Positions 4,906 through 21,694 of a DNA stretch of 21,694 nucleotides are shown here, piece after piece (position 1 is the first letter of the stretch; each line of letters opens with the position of its first letter). The position numbers and the translations under genes are program-made. The DNA is from a virus. Below the pieces are notes generated by a model, which saw nothing but the letters and a program-made list of their open reading frames with translations, did not search any database and was not told the origin of the DNA. The DNA lies in the IMG/VR virus record IMGVR_UViG_3300027881_000098, positions 1 through 21,694 of that record. One strand, written 5' to 3'.

Positions 4906-5553
4906 ATGCCATGGCCTAAAGGCAAGCCTCGACCGAATGCGGCGGCCACACGTGCTACGCAGCACTTCAAGACGTGTGGGCATTGCGGCGAGGAAAAGAG
5001 TCTGGCGGAGTTCCCCTTCGCGCACTGGCGCAAAGGGTGGAAAAAGAAGAAGGCCGCTGACCCTACGAAGTATCGGGACAACTGCAAGGATTGCACGCGT
5101 TATCAAAACGCGGTTGAGGCCGACCCGGACTTCCCTGTTGACCGGGGAGTACGTCCGGGTAGGCCCCCCAAGGATCGGCCGCATCGTAAGCTGACTGAGA
5201 GGGAGAAGAAGGATCGAGACAATGAATATAAATCCAAAATACGGCGCAAGACTCGCATCGCCTGCCTACGTTACCTCGCTCAGAAGGGGTGCGGGGTTTG
5301 CGGTTGTAAAGACCCTCGCGTCCTTGAGTTTGATCACCTGGATCCACGAAAGAAAAAAGGATCAATTGCCACTCTGATCTCACAAGGGTATAGTTGGGCA
5401 AATGAGAAGCTTCGGAAGGAGATTCGCAAGTGCCGTGTACTGTGCGCGAACTGCCACAGACTCCATACAATAGAACAACAGGGGTACTACCAGCATGATG
5501 ACGTTAGACGAGAGCTTAACAAGTTGCTCGAAGCGGCGGGGGTTGACCAGTGA
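4906..5553 (+). CDS. HNH endonuclease with N-terminal zinc finger and AT-hook-like motif
   Basis: 215 residues. The N-terminal module has C24-x2-C27 and C60-x2-C63, a likely zinc finger. RPGRPPK at 83-89 resembles an AT-hook for minor-groove DNA binding. The C-terminal HNH module has C129-x2-C132, FDH at 142-144 (the metal-coordinating D-H pair), and LCANCHR at 179-185, giving a four-Cys zinc-stabilised nuclease of the ββα-metal type. There is no Shine-Dalgarno site before ATG 4906; re-initiation from the TGA 3 nt earlier is likely. HNH genes near terminases can be free-standing homing nucleases or packaging partners (as HK97 gp74). Here it is two genes away from TerS, so either is possible. 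Confidence 0.85.
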   Translation: MPWPKGKPRPNAAATRATQHFKTCGHCGEEKSLAEFPFAHWRKGWKKKKAADPTKYRDNCKDCTRYQNAVEADPDFPVDRGVRPGRPPKDRPHRKLTEREKKDRDNEYKSKIRRKTRIACLRYLAQKGCGVCGCKDPRVLEFDHLDPRKKKGSIATLISQGYSWANEKLRKEIRKCRVLCANCHRLHTIEQQGYYQHDDVRRELNKLLEAAGVDQ

Positions 5554-14110: not shown

Positions 14111-14785
14111 ATGGCAACCGCGCAAGTATTGATTACGGAAGTCCGTCGTGTCATCCATGATGAGAGTTCCCCATATCGCTGGTCAGACTTAGAGCTGATC
14201 GACTACATAAACGCGGGAATGCGCCAAATCGTGCAACTTCTCCCGGAAGCCAACACCATCACATCAGCGGTGCAGCTTACGAACAATCTGGCCAGACAGG
14301 TATTACCGTCAGGGGGCATCAAATTTATCAAAGCGTCGCACAATTTCAACGACGCCGGCACAGTCCGCTCTGGCACCATACGTTACGCAGAGAAGGACGC
14401 GCTCGATACGTACGACCCGGATTGGGAAACCGACGTTGCGATCAAGGCGGACACCGACAACTTCTATCTCCACTATTGCCATCTGTCGGAAGAGCCGAAG
14501 GTCTACTACATGTATCCGCCCTGCTCGGCGTCGAAGTACATCGGGCTGGTCTACTCGAAGATCCCCACGGCTCTGACTGCTGTCGGCGATACCTACGGGC
14601 TCGACGACGAGTACATCAACGCGGGGATCACGTACGTGACCTACCGCGCACTCACCAAGGAAGCGCGGGACACTTTACCCGACGCATACCGCAATGAGTT
14701 GTGGAACAACTTCCTGAACACGCTCGGCCTTGAGAAAGAGTCGAAGTGGAAGGCCCGACCGCCCGCACCACCGGAGGGTGAATAA
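14111..14785 (+). CDS. Head-tail adaptor (DUF6682-like)
   Basis: 224 residues. The N-terminus VRRVIHDESSPYRWSDLELI, then DYINAGMRQIVQLLPEAN, is the helical pattern of DUF6682-type phage adaptor proteins: a short helix, an aromatic W-S/D-x-E-L motif, and a helix beginning IDYINAG. The middle is beta-rich (KVYYMYPP and neighbours). The C-terminal helices contain DEYINAGITYVTYRALTKEA. Twelve copies would bind under the portal and open the platform for the tail. It ends in a TAATG overlap with the next gene. Position between capsid and nozzle genes, the normal place of gp4/gp11-like proteins, supports the call. Confidence 0.82.
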   Translation: MATAQVLITEVRRVIHDESSPYRWSDLELIDYINAGMRQIVQLLPEANTITSAVQLTNNLARQVLPSGGIKFIKASHNFNDAGTVRSGTIRYAEKDALDTYDPDWETDVAIKADTDNFYLHYCHLSEEPKVYYMYPPCSASKYIGLVYSKIPTALTAVGDTYGLDDEYINAGITYVTYRALTKEARDTLPDAYRNELWNNFLNTLGLEKESKWKARPPAPPEGE

Positions 14786-15462
14786 TGACTGTTGCTATTT
14801 CAACGATGGTTCCCGAGCTGCGCGTAGAGCTGCCGGGGATGATCGAGCCCGTCCTCGAGGCGGCGATATTCAGGGGACTGCGCAAGTTCTTCTGGTTCTC
14901 TGAGGCATGGAAGTACACCTGTGACAACGGGCTCGACTACACGTCCGGACAGCAGGCTATGAACTTGCCGGTCGCTGGTACGGACATCCCGGCCAAGACT
15001 GTACTCAAGCGCGTCGACACTGTCCTTTGGGACGCCGGTGGCGACGATTGGGAGAAGCGGATCGAGTTCCGGACTCGCGACCAGCTCGATCGCATCGATG
15101 GCAACTGGTTTACGACGACGGGCTCCGAGCCGAAGTACTGGACGTATGACAACACGCTGCCGATCTGGTATCCCATATCAACGGCTACCGTCACTGACGG
15201 GGCGCTCCTGCGCTGTGTTATCGCTCCCGTGTTTACACTGGTGGCGGACACACTCCCGGATCTGCTCTACTACGAGTTCGAAGACATATTTAAGGCCGGC
15301 ATCCTCGCCGACCTGATGAAGATGCCAGGGAAGGATTGGTCGAATCCGGAAATGTCCGTGTACTACGCGGCCATCTATAAAGCCGGCGTCGATGCAGCCA
15401 AGTCCCGGGCAGAGGCCGATTTCGGTCAGCCTAACAGGACGATGGCATATGGCGGGCTTTAA
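14785..15462 (+). CDS. Second head-tail connector / tail-completion protein
   Basis: 225 residues; ATG 14785 shares a base with the previous TAA, with GGAGG a few bases upstream. The N-terminus STMVPELRVELPGMIEPVLE, then AAIFRGLRKFFWFSEAWKYT, is a pair of helices with an aromatic stretch seen in small podovirus tail-tube or stopper proteins. The middle is strand-rich with tryptophans, and the C-terminal half returns to helices (LLYYEFEDIFKAGILADLMK, then SVYYAAIYKAGVDAAKSRAE) like the T7 gp11/adaptor class. It probably joins the adaptor ring to the nozzle. The final codons overlap the start of the nozzle gene by 14 nt. The exact counterpart in model phages is uncertain. Confidence 0.75.
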   Translation: MTVAISTMVPELRVELPGMIEPVLEAAIFRGLRKFFWFSEAWKYTCDNGLDYTSGQQAMNLPVAGTDIPAKTVLKRVDTVLWDAGGDDWEKRIEFRTRDQLDRIDGNWFTTTGSEPKYWTYDNTLPIWYPISTATVTDGALLRCVIAPVFTLVADTLPDLLYYEFEDIFKAGILADLMKMPGKDWSNPEMSVYYAAIYKAGVDAAKSRAEADFGQPNRTMAYGGL

Positions 15463-18400
15463 GCTAGACTTTTTCAAGGGGCTGCGACCGCGCATCACCG
15501 CAACGAAACTTGGTGTGGGTGAAGCGCAAACAGCGCAGAACTTGCTCCTAGGCTCTGGTGATCTCGAGCCGATCCCCGACAAGGCGACAGAGCAGGCGCT
15601 CAGCATCGAGGCCGGCACGATCTATCGGTACAAGGATACCTCCGGCAACCTGTGGTTTGAGTGGATCGCTCGCGTCAACGTCGCGCAGGGCCCGATCAAG
15701 AACGACTCGTACAACCGCGTCTACTACACCGGTGCCCTGCAGGGCGACGGCAAGCCGAAGTTCACGACCAACGAGCTGGCAGACATAGACAGTGTAGGTC
15801 CATACCCCGAGGGGTGGCAGTACATTGGTGTGCCCGCGCCTACGTCCCCGCTGACAGCCAGTGTTGTGCAGCTGCCAGAAGACGTTGACCCCGGCCTCCG
15901 ACAAGCGAATCAGTTCTTCACAGATACATTTGAGGTCGATCAAATCCTGTACAAGACATACCCCGGGTCTGGCGACGACGTCGAGATCTGGAATCTCGCC
16001 AGCGGCGCCGAGGGGGGCATTCTATTCGACTTGCTACCCGGCACGGCTTTCCGCGTCAAGTCCGTCATCAACAACAGCAGAGTAACGCTAGAGTCCGCTA
16101 CTGAACCCGGCATCACTATGCGGACACTCAATAGCGACAAGACGACCGTATACGATTGGGATCCGTTTGACTACAGCGGGTCGACCAGAACGGCTGACTT
16201 CATCGGCTGGCGCGTACCGGCTGGCATGCAGGTAACGATCCCGGATCACAAGCTGTCTGTCGGCGATATCATCGTCTGTTCCGCGACTAACTTCGCCCCG
16301 ATTCTTTTCCCGGGCGCCGCGCAGGATTTCCACGAGAATGATTGGGCAGTGGATGCTTCGCACTACCTTGCCGGTCTCACCGTCTGGGACGTGCGCGATG
16401 CATCCGTGACCCCCACTGCAACCGAAGGTGAAGATCAGTTCTTCATGCTTGGTTCGTTTTACTACGACGTGGACCGGGCAAGCTCTGAGGTCAGTGAATT
16501 GGAAGACCGTACGTACGTATATACGTACGTCAATTCCTACGGTGAGGAAGGTCCGCCGAGTGACCCGAGTGAAGTAACTCCGCAGCTCGACGGCAAGGAC
16601 GTAACGCTAACAGACATCGCCATGCCCCCGACCATCGGGTATGACGTAACCAACATACGCATCTATAGGTCGAACTCGACAGAGGCCGGCACTGAGTATC
16701 AGTTCGTCAAAGAGATTGGCCTGTCGGTCTCGGCCACCGATGACGTGCTGTCTGAGGATCTCGGTGAGGTCATCCCGAGCACGTCGTGGGATCCGCCACC
16801 GTCAAACATGAAGGGCATTGTCGACATGCCGAACGGCATGATGGTTGGATTCAGCGGTAAGACGGTCCACTTTGCTGAGCCGTACTTCCCGCACGCTTAT
16901 CCGCCCGAGTACGACCAAGCCATTGCCTATGACATCGTCGGTACGGCAGCATTTGGTACGTCCGTGGCCATCCTCACAACTGGTTGGCCGTACATCGTTA
17001 CCGGCACTCACCCGCGCAACGCTAGCGTGCGACCGATCAAGGTCAACTACGCATGCGCCTCTGCTGAGTCGATCGCTACTGATGGCGACAATGTTTATTA
17101 TGCTGCGGAAGAGGGGCTGGTAGAAGTTGGTGCGCGTGGCGCACGGCTCGTGACAGAGACGTTTGCAGACAAGAGCGACTGGTCCGCCTACTCACCGTCG
17201 TCCATGATCAGCGGGTTCTTTGACGGCCGCTACTACGGATTCTGGGGATTCGATGCGGAGTCGGTCGCGACTGAGATCGTCGCAGAAGTTAGCGGCACGG
17301 TTACCGATGCCGACGAGAGCGATATCAGGGATGGCGGCAAGACGATCATCCTGACGCTCACGAATGATTTGTGGGTTACTGCGGGCACGTCCTTCGACAA
17401 TCAGCGACAGAACATAATCGACGGCATCAGCGACACCGCTGCGTCGCCGCAGACCAACGGCTGGGACAACATCCTCCGCGATACGACTTTGGTTGTAGGT
17501 AACGTGGTACGTACCAGTGACACAGTCGTGACGATCACGTTACCTGCGAGCGTGACATACTCAATCGATTCCGCAGAGACCATTCAACCGACGATCCCCG
17601 CCTCCGCTTTGCAGGTATCCAACGCTGCAATAGCGACCGGGTCAACTTTCAAGATCACATATGAGCGCGCAGTTTCGTCCGTCGCTATCACCGGTACCAT
17701 CGATGGTGCTGCCGAGGCAGATATCGTCACGGGTGGCGACACGGTCATACTGACGCTCACGAACGATACTTGGATCTCCGTCGCTGACGGATTCAACGCC
17801 TTCCGCTCCGTACTTGCGTTAGGCTTGATCGCATCGACCAACGAGACATTTGGGTGGAACGACACCGTTCCACACGAGATACTCGTCGCCAGCGTCGTTC
17901 GTACCAGTGACACAGTCGTGACAATCACGCTGCCTGCTATCGCAGACTACGCTGTGACTGATAACGAGTCGGTCACTGCCGTGGTGCCGCACGGGATCCT
18001 CGAGACGCAGGAAGACGTCGACGTAACGGCAGGCAACTCAGTTGGCATCCTCGCAACAGGCGAGCCATCTGCCCTGTTCAGTGGTACAGCAACTGCCAGC
18101 ATGACCGAGAACGAAGTTATCGCCGGCGCCAAGGTACTGGACATCACGCTGACCAACGAGACCTTCGTCGCAGCAGGCACCGGGCCGATTGGCACGACTG
18201 CGCAGTCAGAAGCGTTACTCGCCGCAATCTCCGCGGCTGCGGATCCGACCACCGGCTGGAACGCCGAGGTAAGAGACAACTTCGTAGTTGGTGACCTCAC
18301 TCGAGTGTCGAGCACGGTCGCCAGGGTCACGCTGGGCGCAGAATCCGCTTACAGCATTGACGGTAACGAAACGATCAGCTGCATCATCCCCGCGGGCGTA

Positions 18401-20389
18401 CTGACAGGCGCCATTGCGCTCGCGGTCTCGAATTCATTCAGTGTCATCAACCAGAACCCCGTCACTGCGGTACTGAGTGGCACAGTCGATGTTACCCCGA
18501 ACATTCAAGAAGACGTTATCGTAGACGGTGGCAAGACGATCATCCTCACGCTGAGCCAAGATACATGGCTCGCAGCCGGCACTGGCCCGATAGGATCAAC
18601 TGCTAATACGCAGGCCATCATCGATGGCATCGATTCCGCGCAGGCAGAGGGCACTGGCTGGGATGCCGAAGTGAAGGCGAACCTCGTACCGGCCACAGAC
18701 GTAGTGCGCACCAATGACACGGTATGTACGATCACTCTACCCGCTTCGGCCTCTTACGATATCACCGCCCAAGAGACCATTACAGCGACCATACCCGCGG
18801 CAGCTTTGAACATAAGCGCGTCAGAGGTAGTCGCATCACCTACGTTCGAGATTGACGTGGACGTAGCCGCATCGTGCGCAGTTACCGGTACGGCAGATGG
18901 TGCTGCGGACACTGACATCATCACCGGCAGCAAGACGATCTTGCTGACGATCTCTGATGATGAATGGGTCGCCGCTGGCACCGCATTCGATAATCAGCGC
19001 CAGAACATCATCGATGGGCTCGACGCTGCATCCTCACCGGCTGGGGGCTGGAATACTCAGGTCCGTGATGTGATGGGCGTGAGCACGGTAGTACGCACCA
19101 GCGCCACGCTCGTAACGATCACACTCCCAGCCACCGCTGCCTACGACATCAACGCCGCGGAAGTGATCACCGTCACCGTTCCGGCAAGTGCGCTCGAGCA
19201 GAGCGGCATAGCCGTAACCGGGGACGTTACAGTCGATGTGTCCGCTACGACCAGCGCTACAACGAAGCTGGTATTCACGTATTCGGACGCATCTTCTAGC
19301 GACGACTTCATCCAGCAAACGCATTACGACATAGCCTACCAGTACACAGCCGTAGAATCATTCGGCGGCGCAACTAGCGGCGAGAGCGCGCATAAGGGCG
19401 CCTACTCTGCCAGCCTTGACCGGTGGGTATTTTGGGTTGGCGATGTGTTCGGATTTGATAGCCTGTACTCGATCGAGGGCGATACATACGGCACCGCCAC
19501 CGCTAGAACTTCGGCCATGGCGAGCCAAGACTCCACTGGCCAAGTGTTCAGATCTGACGCACTCGGCTACTTCTTGAACCGTAGCAGGGCCGGCCTGGAG
19601 TATTCCGTTAACGGACAAACTGGCTGGACCGACATTACGTCCGCTGCGGAGAACCCGCTGACAGCCGGTGGCTCGCCGACTTGGGACTTACACAACGAGT
19701 CTGGTTATGCCAGACATGACATCCTTTATGGCGGCGCAGACTACCTGTACGCAGTCATCAAGAATTACAACCACAACATACTGGTGCGCAGCGCCGATAT
19801 GTCGGGTGCCAATACACCAGCGACCAACTGGACGCACGAGCTTACGACTCCGTTCACGACCACGAACGACCTGTACGCCGCCTACGGCTCCGGCAACGGG
19901 CGCATTGTCATGTGGGGTTCGGATACCGTCGACGGCAATGCGCAGTACCAAGGCATCGGGTATGTCGCACACGGCGGCACCACACTCCTCCAGTGCACCA
20001 ACTTAAGTAGCACCCCATCGTTCGGGTCAGGCGGAGCCGATATGCCGAAGTGGGTTGTGTTCGGTAACGGTGTGTGGCTCGCCATGAACACGGATGGCGA
20101 GATCGCTACCGTCGCCGCGGACAGTGAGACCGACGCATCAAACTGGGCCAAGGGCACAACGATCGGCATTGGCACGGACCACATAGTACGATCGGTGTGG
20201 TACGATATCGGCACAGGATCCGACGACGGGCACGGCTTCGTTATGGTGGCAACTAAGTACCTGACTGGTGAGTTCGAAGTGTGGACTAGCACGAACGGTA
20301 CCAGCTGGACGAAGGAAGTCGATGACACCGACAAAAGGAGCCTCCGCGCCTTCACCAAGTACTTACCTGATGGATCGGACTTAGCATAA
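15449..20389 (+). CDS. Giant tail nozzle fusion: nozzle N-terminal part, five Ig-like repeats, propeller-like domain
   Basis: 1646 residues; start ATG 15449 (AGGA upstream) overlaps the previous gene. Residues 1 to about 605 match the T7 gp12-like nozzle: AGFKLDFFKGLRPRITATKL near the N-terminus, the tell-tale YVYTYVNSYGEEGPPS at about 354-369, and SMISGFFDGRYYGFWGF near 587-603. Where nozzle proteins normally continue to their C-terminal propeller blades, this one has five repeats of about 120-136 residues (615-1264), each with GGKTIILTLTNDxW, GW, VVRTSDTVVTITLPA and ETITxTIPASAL motifs. About 380 residues follow that look like a beta-propeller (YSASLDRWVFWVGDVFGFDS; EVWTSTNGTSWTKE resembles an Asp-box). 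The expected nozzle end is the next gene. Likely forms the tail tip with added surface domains. Confidence 0.85.
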   Translation: MAGFKLDFFKGLRPRITATKLGVGEAQTAQNLLLGSGDLEPIPDKATEQALSIEAGTIYRYKDTSGNLWFEWIARVNVAQGPIKNDSYNRVYYTGALQGDGKPKFTTNELADIDSVGPYPEGWQYIGVPAPTSPLTASVVQLPEDVDPGLRQANQFFTDTFEVDQILYKTYPGSGDDVEIWNLASGAEGGILFDLLPGTAFRVKSVINNSRVTLESATEPGITMRTLNSDKTTVYDWDPFDYSGSTRTADFIGWRVPAGMQVTIPDHKLSVGDIIVCSATNFAPILFPGAAQDFHENDWAVDASHYLAGLTVWDVRDASVTPTATEGEDQFFMLGSFYYDVDRASSEVSELEDRTYVYTYVNSYGEEGPPSDPSEVTPQLDGKDVTLTDIAMPPTIGYDVTNIRIYRSNSTEAGTEYQFVKEIGLSVSATDDVLSEDLGEVIPSTSWDPPPSNMKGIVDMPNGMMVGFSGKTVHFAEPYFPHAYPPEYDQAIAYDIVGTAAFGTSVAILTTGWPYIVTGTHPRNASVRPIKVNYACASAESIATDGDNVYYAAEEGLVEVGARGARLVTETFADKSDWSAYSPSSMISGFFDGRYYGFWGFDAESVATEIVAEVSGTVTDADESDIRDGGKTIILTLTNDLWVTAGTSFDNQRQNIIDGISDTAASPQTNGWDNILRDTTLVVGNVVRTSDTVVTITLPASVTYSIDSAETIQPTIPASALQVSNAAIATGSTFKITYERAVSSVAITGTIDGAAEADIVTGGDTVILTLTNDTWISVADGFNAFRSVLALGLIASTNETFGWNDTVPHEILVASVVRTSDTVVTITLPAIADYAVTDNESVTAVVPHGILETQEDVDVTAGNSVGILATGEPSALFSGTATASMTENEVIAGAKVLDITLTNETFVAAGTGPIGTTAQSEALLAAISAAADPTTGWNAEVRDNFVVGDLTRVSSTVARVTLGAESAYSIDGNETISCIIPAGVLTGAIALAVSNSFSVINQNPVTAVLSGTVDVTPNIQEDVIVDGGKTIILTLSQDTWLAAGTGPIGSTANTQAIIDGIDSAQAEGTGWDAEVKANLVPATDVVRTNDTVCTITLPASASYDITAQETITATIPAAALNISASEVVASPTFEIDVDVAASCAVTGTADGAADTDIITGSKTILLTISDDEWVAAGTAFDNQRQNIIDGLDAASSPAGGWNTQVRDVMGVSTVVRTSATLVTITLPATAAYDINAAEVITVTVPASALEQSGIAVTGDVTVDVSATTSATTKLVFTYSDASSSDDFIQQTHYDIAYQYTAVESFGGATSGESAHKGAYSASLDRWVFWVGDVFGFDSLYSIEGDTYGTATARTSAMASQDSTGQVFRSDALGYFLNRSRAGLEYSVNGQTGWTDITSAAENPLTAGGSPTWDLHNESGYARHDILYGGADYLYAVIKNYNHNILVRSADMSGANTPATNWTHELTTPFTTTNDLYAAYGSGNGRIVMWGSDTVDGNAQYQGIGYVAHGGTTLLQCTNLSSTPSFGSGGADMPKWVVFGNGVWLAMNTDGEIATVAADSETDASNWAKGTTIGIGTDHIVRSVWYDIGTGSDDGHGFVMVATKYLTGEFEVWTSTNGTSWTKEVDDTDKRSLRAFTKYLPDGSDLA
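17291..19240 (+). repeat. Five tandem coding repeats (Ig-like)
   Basis: Units begin at 17291, 17690, 18080, 18476 and 18884, spacing 399, 390, 396 and 408 bp, all multiples of three. Mostly diverged, but patches are nearly identical in DNA: 17510-17539 and 17900-17929 differ at one of 30 positions. Units 1 and 5 share FDNQRQNIIDG. Units 3 and 4 share AAGTGPIG plus TA. This pattern suggests duplication with occasional recombination between units. Confidence 0.85.
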
Positions 20390-20826
20390 TGCCGGGACTA
20401 ATCATATTTGACCCCAACGACCAGAACATCGGTCTCTCGGTGGGGGACGACCAAGCGAACTCAGTGTTCCTCGACATTGAAGAGGGCAAACTGTACATCG
20501 CTGATCTGTCCAACATCTACGAGTGGGAAGGCGACTCAGCTAACATGACGTACACGTGGAAGTCTGGCAAGATCCGGCTGCCGCGCGAAGTGAACATGGG
20601 GGCTGCAATGATCGAGGCCGAGTCATACGACAGCATTACGTTCAAGCTGTTCACAGTACTTGCCGGCGTCGACACACAGATTACTTCTGTATCAGTGGCG
20701 AGCGAGGTTCCGTTCCGGTTGCCGGGTGGGCACACCGGAAATGTGTACTGGGTTGAGATCATAAGCACGGATCGCATATCGCGTGTGAGCGTCGGTCAGA
20801 GCGTATTCGATTTGGCAGAGGGGTAG
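20389..20826 (+). CDS. Separate C-terminal part of the tail nozzle
   Basis: 145 residues; ATG 20389 uses the last base of the previous TAA (TAATG), so it is translated by coupled re-initiation; no clear ribosome site of its own. The sequence LIIFDPNDQNIGLS, then LDIEEGKLYIADLSNIYEWE, MTYTWKSGKIRLPREVNMGA, and EVPFRLPGGHTGNVYWVEII, is what normally forms the last 140 or so residues of T7 gp12-like nozzle proteins (pattern G-F-I-F-D-P, D-x-Y-x-W, L-T-Y-T-W-K-S-K, P-F-R-L-P-x-G). Here it is a stand-alone chain that presumably re-associates with the preceding protein. Confidence 0.82.
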   Translation: MPGLIIFDPNDQNIGLSVGDDQANSVFLDIEEGKLYIADLSNIYEWEGDSANMTYTWKSGKIRLPREVNMGAAMIEAESYDSITFKLFTVLAGVDTQITSVSVASEVPFRLPGGHTGNVYWVEIISTDRISRVSVGQSVFDLAEG

Positions 20827-20827
20827 C

Positions 20828-21694
20828 ATGGCAGGCTCCGGCACTGGCATCTCGGCTGGCAAGCGTGCACAACAGTCGCGCGCCCGCACACGTCGACTCC
20901 CGTACCTCGACGTTCCGAAGGTAGAGGACCCCGCGCTCGCGCGTGCGTTCGATACCATCGCAGAACACTTCCGTGTGTATGACGGGGAGTCCAATGCGCC
21001 CAAGGAACGCTTCGTAACTCTCCAGGAACTCGTCGACGCCGGCCTCGTAAGCGCCAGCACGAAGGGTGGGCACTCGTACATAGCACAGATTCTCAACCAG
21101 GACGTGTCGCAGAAGGCGGGCTCGACTGCTAACCCGTCTCTCAAGGGCACCGTCCTGAAAGACACAGCACTCGGCTCCCGCACACCGGGTGGCGCGGGCG
21201 GCAGTAATAACCCGATCGAGCAGGGCAAACGCGGACTGATCAACAAGCTGAGCGACATCGGCAATGTCAAAGTGCAGAGCCCAGCGCAGCGTGACTTCTT
21301 GTATAACGATGGCGGCAAGTGGACCAACTACCCGCTGTTCAAGCGCAGCAACGCATGGAACGCTCGGCAGGACTTCGCTGGTGGTATCACAGTCGAGGGT
21401 GTCGCGTATTCGGCGCCAGCTGCCGAGGTCAACGACCTCTCGGCTGCTGTTACGTGGGCCAATGTACCAGACGCGAACATTACGGAGTCCTCAGTAACAC
21501 AACACTCCGCAGCAATAAGCACGGCTCTTAGTCTCAACGTAGCAAATTGGGATACAGCTTACGGGTGGGGAGACCATGCAGGTCTCTACGAAGCAGCGGA
21601 TGCGGCCATCGTCAAGTCAGACGAAGCGGAGGTAATTACCGCCGCATGGAACTTTGCTACACCAGACCTCATAATGAACGCTCGGACCGCGCTC
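20828..21694 (+). CDS. Tail fibre protein, incomplete at the right end
   Basis: The frame opens at ATG 20828, one base after the previous TAG, and stays open for 289 codons to the window end. The N-terminal 45 residues are basic and probably bind the tail (GTGISAGKRAQQSRARTRRL). A helical part follows (ALARAFDTIAEHFRVYD), then a glycine/serine-rich stretch. Next is the fibre motif SDIGNVKVQSPAQRDFLYND with GGKWTN, found in many phage fibres before a shaft repeat. VANWDTAYGWGDHAGLYEAA (about residues 237-256) is a common trimeric fibre-shaft motif. The receptor-binding end lies outside the window. Position directly after the nozzle agrees with a fibre attached to the tail. Confidence 0.85.
   Translation, partial: MAGSGTGISAGKRAQQSRARTRRLPYLDVPKVEDPALARAFDTIAEHFRVYDGESNAPKERFVTLQELVDAGLVSASTKGGHSYIAQILNQDVSQKAGSTANPSLKGTVLKDTALGSRTPGGAGGSNNPIEQGKRGLINKLSDIGNVKVQSPAQRDFLYNDGGKWTNYPLFKRSNAWNARQDFAGGITVEGVAYSAPAAEVNDLSAAVTWANVPDANITESSVTQHSAAISTALSLNVANWDTAYGWGDHAGLYEAADAAIVKSDEAEVITAAWNFATPDLIMNARTAL

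Follow-up and report, generated by a model that had tools for sequence, protein, structure and literature searches.

A clade of viral nozzle genes split by an Ig-like string and a propeller-like tip probably encodes a two-chain nozzle with a built-in fibre

The tail channel of podoviruses is closed by their nozzle proteins, which sit at the end of the tube for DNA ejection. As far as structures are known in this family, a protomer is to our knowledge a single chain and the fibres are separate proteins. A first-pass annotation of the 21,694-nucleotide viral stretch analysed here (the window; IMG/VR record IMGVR_UViG_3300027881_000098) had proposed that a nozzle gene is split in it by a 3.1-kb insertion, with its C-terminus now encoded by a separate gene. 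The question raised by this locus is then whether two neighbouring genes together encode one nozzle and what the sequence lying between its halves might be. The tail genes of the window and the parts of the two chains are as follows:

14111..14785, + strand: SU10-type adaptor protein (PF24175, E 7e-21; phrog_399)
14785..15462, + strand: virion structural protein (phrog_437)
15449..20389, + strand: large chain, 1646 aa; nozzle N-part, then Ig-like string, then tip
15449..17248, + strand: nozzle N-part, residues 1-600; N-terminal platform strands and most propeller blades, as predicted
15875..16480, + strand: extra domain of about 200 aa, residues 143-344; a gap in the alignment, well folded in the model
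17249..17287, + strand: linker, residues 601-613; low confidence; the chain leaves the nozzle propeller here
17288..17650, + strand: Ig-like repeat 1 (iterated HMM, 154 bits)
17687..18043, + strand: Ig-like repeat 2 (iterated HMM, 134 bits)
18077..18439, + strand: Ig-like repeat 3 (iterated HMM, 116 bits)
18473..18847, + strand: Ig-like repeat 4 (iterated HMM, 147 bits)
18881..19234, + strand: Ig-like repeat 5 (iterated HMM, 139 bits), modelled together with the tip
19235..20386, + strand: tip domain, beta-propeller-like, 384 aa (BLAST, alignment A5, Foldseek)
20387..20391, + strand: TAATG, where the large-chain stop overlaps the small-chain start by one base
20389..20826, + strand: small chain, nozzle C-part, 145 aa (phrog_511, 8jov_A, hhalign)
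20828..21694, + strand: downstream gene, cut by the contig end; weak tail-fibre match (phrog_9729, E 5e-4)

The ORF of the large gene spans positions 15392-20389 of the window, and 15449 is very probably the true start of its chain since MAGF is common to nearly all split relatives. A PHROG search matched residues 1-599 to positions 319-710 of phrog_511 (E 6e-108), and a profile of the N-part (alignment A1) matched 8jov with an E-value of 1e-108. The boundaries of this part were taken from an alignment with ten unsplit nozzles (Itty13, Skulduggery, BcepMigl, PEp14, Parlo, POI1126, CF418P1, phiARM81mr, 1F273_PE002 and 1.205.O). Nozzle-like sequence had been described up to DGRYYGFWGF, and it indeed reaches FDGRYYGFWGF, the final residue of which ends at about 17251. 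The AF2 model of residues 1-745 had a pLDDT of 80 and its best PDB matches in Foldseek were the 8jov (GP4), SU10 and cyanophage A4 nozzle/tail complexes, with 8jov as the top structural match to the N-part (E 5e-14) and SU10 chains second; core TM-scores to known nozzles were low (0.2-0.3 in Foldseek), partly because the small chain and the domain arrangement are missing from the model. Modelled without the small chain, residues 1-47 stayed unfolded (block means of pLDDT 33-47) and most of the N-part exceeded 80. Confidence then dropped below 50 at residues 601-612, right behind strands at 587-591 and 594-598, with the first Ig domain coming next. Residues 143-344 are additional compared with Bcep22/GP4-type nozzles and would lie approximately where T7 and SU10 nozzles have their tip domain (PMC9509320, PMC6702177); since unsplit relatives have this domain too, it is not part of the split.

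The small chain starts with MPGLIIFDPNDQN and contains the TYTWKS and PFRLPGG motifs, in agreement with the first-pass annotation, and its residues 3-144 matched positions 718-860 of phrog_511 (E 8e-21 in the PHROG search), which leaves a gap of seven profile positions between the matches of the two chains. When split small proteins were compared with unsplit C-parts by hhalign, with split and unsplit rows kept separate, the probability was 99.7 and the E-value 4.6e-27. Similarly, residues 130-374 of 8jov_A matched the large chain and residues 384-576 the small one, both parts lying within one 577-aa chain that is present in six copies. That the two parts are contiguous in ordinary nozzles was borne out by the ten annotated relatives, in which both are found in one ORF (524-591 aa) with a short joining loop. 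The alignment placed the junction at this same loop, exactly where the window gains sequence, and its HMM-defined halves are 3,144 nt apart, as expected for the proposed 3.1-kb insertion. Thus, rather than belonging to independent families, the two proteins correspond to neighbouring stretches of phrog_511 and of a single solved chain, and they share their ancestry with single-chain nozzles; the two PHROG E-values are independent and the layout is shared by nine distinct records, which is far from chance.

Between the halves lie exactly five Ig-like repeats, the number given by the first-pass annotation, with 118-125 aa each (about 119 aa) and pairwise identities of 29-55% (iterated HMM), followed by the 384-aa tip, for which a propeller-like domain had been suggested. 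Seven other split relatives have tips homologous to that of the window (alignment A5), and BLAST found those of L105 (5e-21) and L017 (2e-13; L numbers designate nozzle loci and other records from our scans). Its model is all-beta and of modest confidence (pLDDT 68), and its PDB matches in Foldseek are beta-propellers (E about 1e-9), so that the domain is likely a propeller according to this prediction. A check of the tip for a binding or enzymatic domain returned the propeller fold alone, from this weak model, and no Pfam family; no receptor or enzyme motif was identified in the tip. Neither the Ig repeats nor the tip matched a family in Pfam, PHROG or PDB sequences, and the Ig region and the tip gave no matches to cultured phages. 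The Ig-like module of about 119 aa is widespread in unrelated phage proteins (L093, L183, L187, L190, L192 and others), where as many as seven copies stand in tandem; Pfam has no family for it. GC content is the same in the insert and in the rest of the gene (0.57-0.58); a recent foreign insertion was also considered, and this uniform composition gives no sign of one.

We then turned to the distribution of this arrangement. IMG/VR scans yielded 145 distinct nozzle loci: 115 carry both halves in one ORF, the junction spanning no more than 139 nt, and nine consist of two ORFs split at the same loop, with 1.5-3.2 kb between the halves (the window, L013, L014, L015/L016, L017, L092, L105, L106 and L119). 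The contigs of four more loci (L012, L113, L114 and L116) end within the same insert, and the remaining loci either carry insertions of other kinds or have a C-part whose divergence or truncation kept it from scoring. A tree built from the core puts the split records and the four insert-truncated contigs on the same side of a single branch (SH-aLRT 100); L121 lies inside the same clade and was scored as 'one' merely because its contig ends within the core. A single event with nine descendants, not nine events, is most simply compatible with these data, and the joint occurrence of insertion and split can therefore not be counted as independent trials. Each of the eight related split records has one N-part and one C-part, with no second C-part and no complete nozzle beside the small gene in any of these fragmentary records. 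The split is thus a conserved trait of a clade that is not private to the window genome, and it is real rather than an error, since at least eight relatives share the arrangement. This clade was recovered only with alignment queries and with the Ig query, P0002 as a lone query against IMG/VR having found no relative; neither a host nor a prophage emerged when bacterial genomes were scanned with an alignment of the clade.

Comparing members of the clade, the tip was found to diverge fastest. The window and L105 are 62% identical in the core, 52% in the small chain and 35% in the tip; against L105 and L017 together, the tip of the window is 30-35% and its core 55-62% identical. Other pairs point in the same direction, with 80, 77 and 60% for core, small chain and tip between L013 and L106. 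The number of Ig repeats varies from one to seven among the split members, six of the nine having a single repeat. L092 has seven (L092:8135-13195) and finishes with a short, different domain instead of the propeller tip, so that this tip is not universal; L092 is also the closest relative of the window Ig string, possibly reflecting a natural exchange of tips. Adhesion-like domains are carried elsewhere by related nozzles. The small chain of L016 (L016:12670-13887) contains an extra stretch of about 250 aa with a lectin-like Laminin_G_3 domain above the Pfam cut-off, which sits in the loop where Bcep22-type nozzles have an insertion of about 60 aa. BNR/sortilin-like repeat domains are inserted one loop further on in L018:6494-7858, L019:10739-12103 and L021:6111-6950, which implies that nozzle loops gained propellers more than once or moved them.

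Other genes around these loci also drew our attention. An ORF at window positions 4906-5553, upstream of the terminase, holds CxxC pairs and a DHLDP motif and looks HNH endonuclease-like by eye. Annotated reverse-transcriptase genes are found just upstream of the nozzle in L005 (L005:2151-3437) and L007 (L007:1666-3317), with an Avd-like gene in 1F273_PE002, suggesting that diversity-generating elements are aimed at tail genes in these two relatives.

The small gene is under purifying selection: pN/pS is 0.19-0.55 over eight uninterrupted copies, and the closest pairs (0.24 for L013-L106 and 0.19 for L013-L119) are the most reliable, because most pairs are close to saturation at synonymous sites. 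How the second chain would be made can be considered from the junctions themselves. The TAATG anticipated in the window is found at the split in eight of the nine records, L092 having instead a TAG, 12 nt and an ATG in the same frame. As the large and small ORFs overlap in the -1 frame in those eight and share their frame across the TAG in L092, ribosomal frameshifting or stop readthrough could be thought to yield one long chain with the insert tethered at both ends. We nevertheless consider this very unlikely: the eight overlaps (about 6-19 codons each) contain no slippery heptamer, the frame relation is different in L092, and the small chain keeps an ATG start with M-(P/A)-G in nine of nine split records, at a position for which R/K-G or the like is usual in unsplit nozzles. 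At 14785, moreover, a further pair of window genes is joined by the same one-base TAATG overlap. Since the overlaps lack such heptamers and Shine-Dalgarno sequences are scarce in them, re-initiation after termination appears to fit better than frameshifting.

Considering all of this, our best explanation, which we hold to be probable, is a two-chain nozzle in which the C-terminus of the large chain is a fibre with a probable receptor-binding tip. According to this model, the ancestor of the clade would have gained the Ig-like string and the propeller tip in a loop between two strands of a late propeller blade. Translation would end after the tip and restart one base back, at the TAATG, to give the separate 145-aa chain. 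This small chain would associate with the large chain, finish the blade and close the propeller, and together with the first 47 or so residues of the large chain it would form the platform docking on the adaptor. By analogy with solved nozzles, it would contribute the last part of the propeller and the platform strands from the C-terminus: the T7 platform is C-terminal except for three strands, which come from residues 1-45, and a velcro in blade 1 closes the propeller (PMC6702177); SU10 is built in a similar way (PMC9509320). The freed C-terminus of the large chain would then be a fibre, so that each protomer has one and each hexameric nozzle six, and its probable receptor-binding end would be the propeller. 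Tip divergence, the lectin-like and BNR-like insertions and purifying selection on the small gene argue for a two-chain nozzle and for receptor binding.

The most serious competitor keeps the two chains and sees the Ig-like string as an extensible part of the nozzle that would, as in SU10, straighten upon contact to make the ejection tube longer; there, four Ig-like nozzle domains rearrange from an L into a 28-nm extension (PMC9509320). The match of the window model to SU10 chains in Foldseek and the variable number of Ig repeats would suit such a role, but SU10 has its domains placed between blades 2 and 3 and the window has its string at a later loop, and eight of the nine split members end in a homologous, fast-diverging tip. 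Because most split members (six of nine) have only one Ig repeat and the tip diverges fastest, and because adhesion-like domains of other kinds are found in related nozzles, a fibre is favoured and we regard the tube as improbable, if less so than the readings that follow. What speaks against the fibre is its assumed outward exposure: the SU10 channel is lined by blades 4-6 (PMC9509320), and a late-blade loop might therefore point into crowded surroundings. If the small gene were a relic or had another job, the large chain would form the nozzle alone, as the good fold of the modelled N-part might allow; this is highly improbable given that the small gene is retained in all nine records with the pN/pS values above, that its product has the strands that close the propeller and form the platform in single-chain nozzles, and that residues 1-47 remain unfolded without it in AF2. 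Finally, the window is a metagenomic contig without a cultured close relative, as might be expected if the split came from errors of assembly or sequencing or were a one-off pseudogene. This is scarcely credible and is contradicted by independent records: the same break point occurs in nine distinct records from several datasets with 54-65% core identity, and the insert has the GC content of the remaining gene.

If the two-chain nozzle with its fibre is correct, the fibre would be tethered solely to the large chain and the small chain would be a non-covalent closer. The large chain might even be DNA gate and receptor-binding fibre in one, with receptor binding pulling directly on the gate and a single molecule linking adsorption to channel opening, an idea that we put forward tentatively and think somewhat doubtful. 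Receptor action on the gate would thereby become testable, and a natural split site in a nozzle is marked by this clade. The kinds of components are already known (podovirus nozzle, Ig-like modules and propeller tips), and no split nozzle, let alone one with a built-in fibre, was found among the open-access papers searched. More generally, a late blade is evidently a place at which a nozzle propeller can be opened and can accommodate large additions. Such loci also risk misannotation: the small gene would end up as a hypothetical protein, and the large gene as an incomplete nozzle or a fibre.

Among nozzles related by sequence or fold, the sister nozzles L018, L019 and L021 are near the split clade in the tree and have BNR-like propellers within the C-part; their insertion, however, is at the next loop, and the nozzle remains one ORF in L018 and L019, L021 being cut by the contig end. 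T7 gp12 resembles the window nozzle in having a platform of N- and C-terminal segments, a seven-bladed propeller and a tip domain in a loop of blade 3 (PMC6702177), with no detectable sequence match between the two, but it is a single chain and its fibre (gp17) is a separate protein. SU10 gp17 also has a platform and a seven-bladed propeller into which Ig-like domains are inserted (PMC9509320), and the window has an SU10-type adaptor gene upstream. In contrast to the window nozzle, however, SU10 gp17 is one chain whose Ig-like domains, between blades 2 and 3, make the extending tube, its fibres being separate proteins; the Ig string of the window starts in a late loop, from residue 601 on, and residues 143-344 hold a different domain. 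Closest are the Ralstonia phage GP4 nozzle (8jov) and the Bcep22-like 'internal virion proteins', which belong to the same phrog_511 family over both halves. The N-terminal two thirds, the C-terminal third and the fold of the window nozzle all match this solved family, and the single polypeptide that is typical of phrog_511, without being definitional, is replaced by two ORFs in the nine split records. GP4/Bcep22 nozzles are single chains with a short junction loop and neither Ig string nor tip, whereas the window has both.
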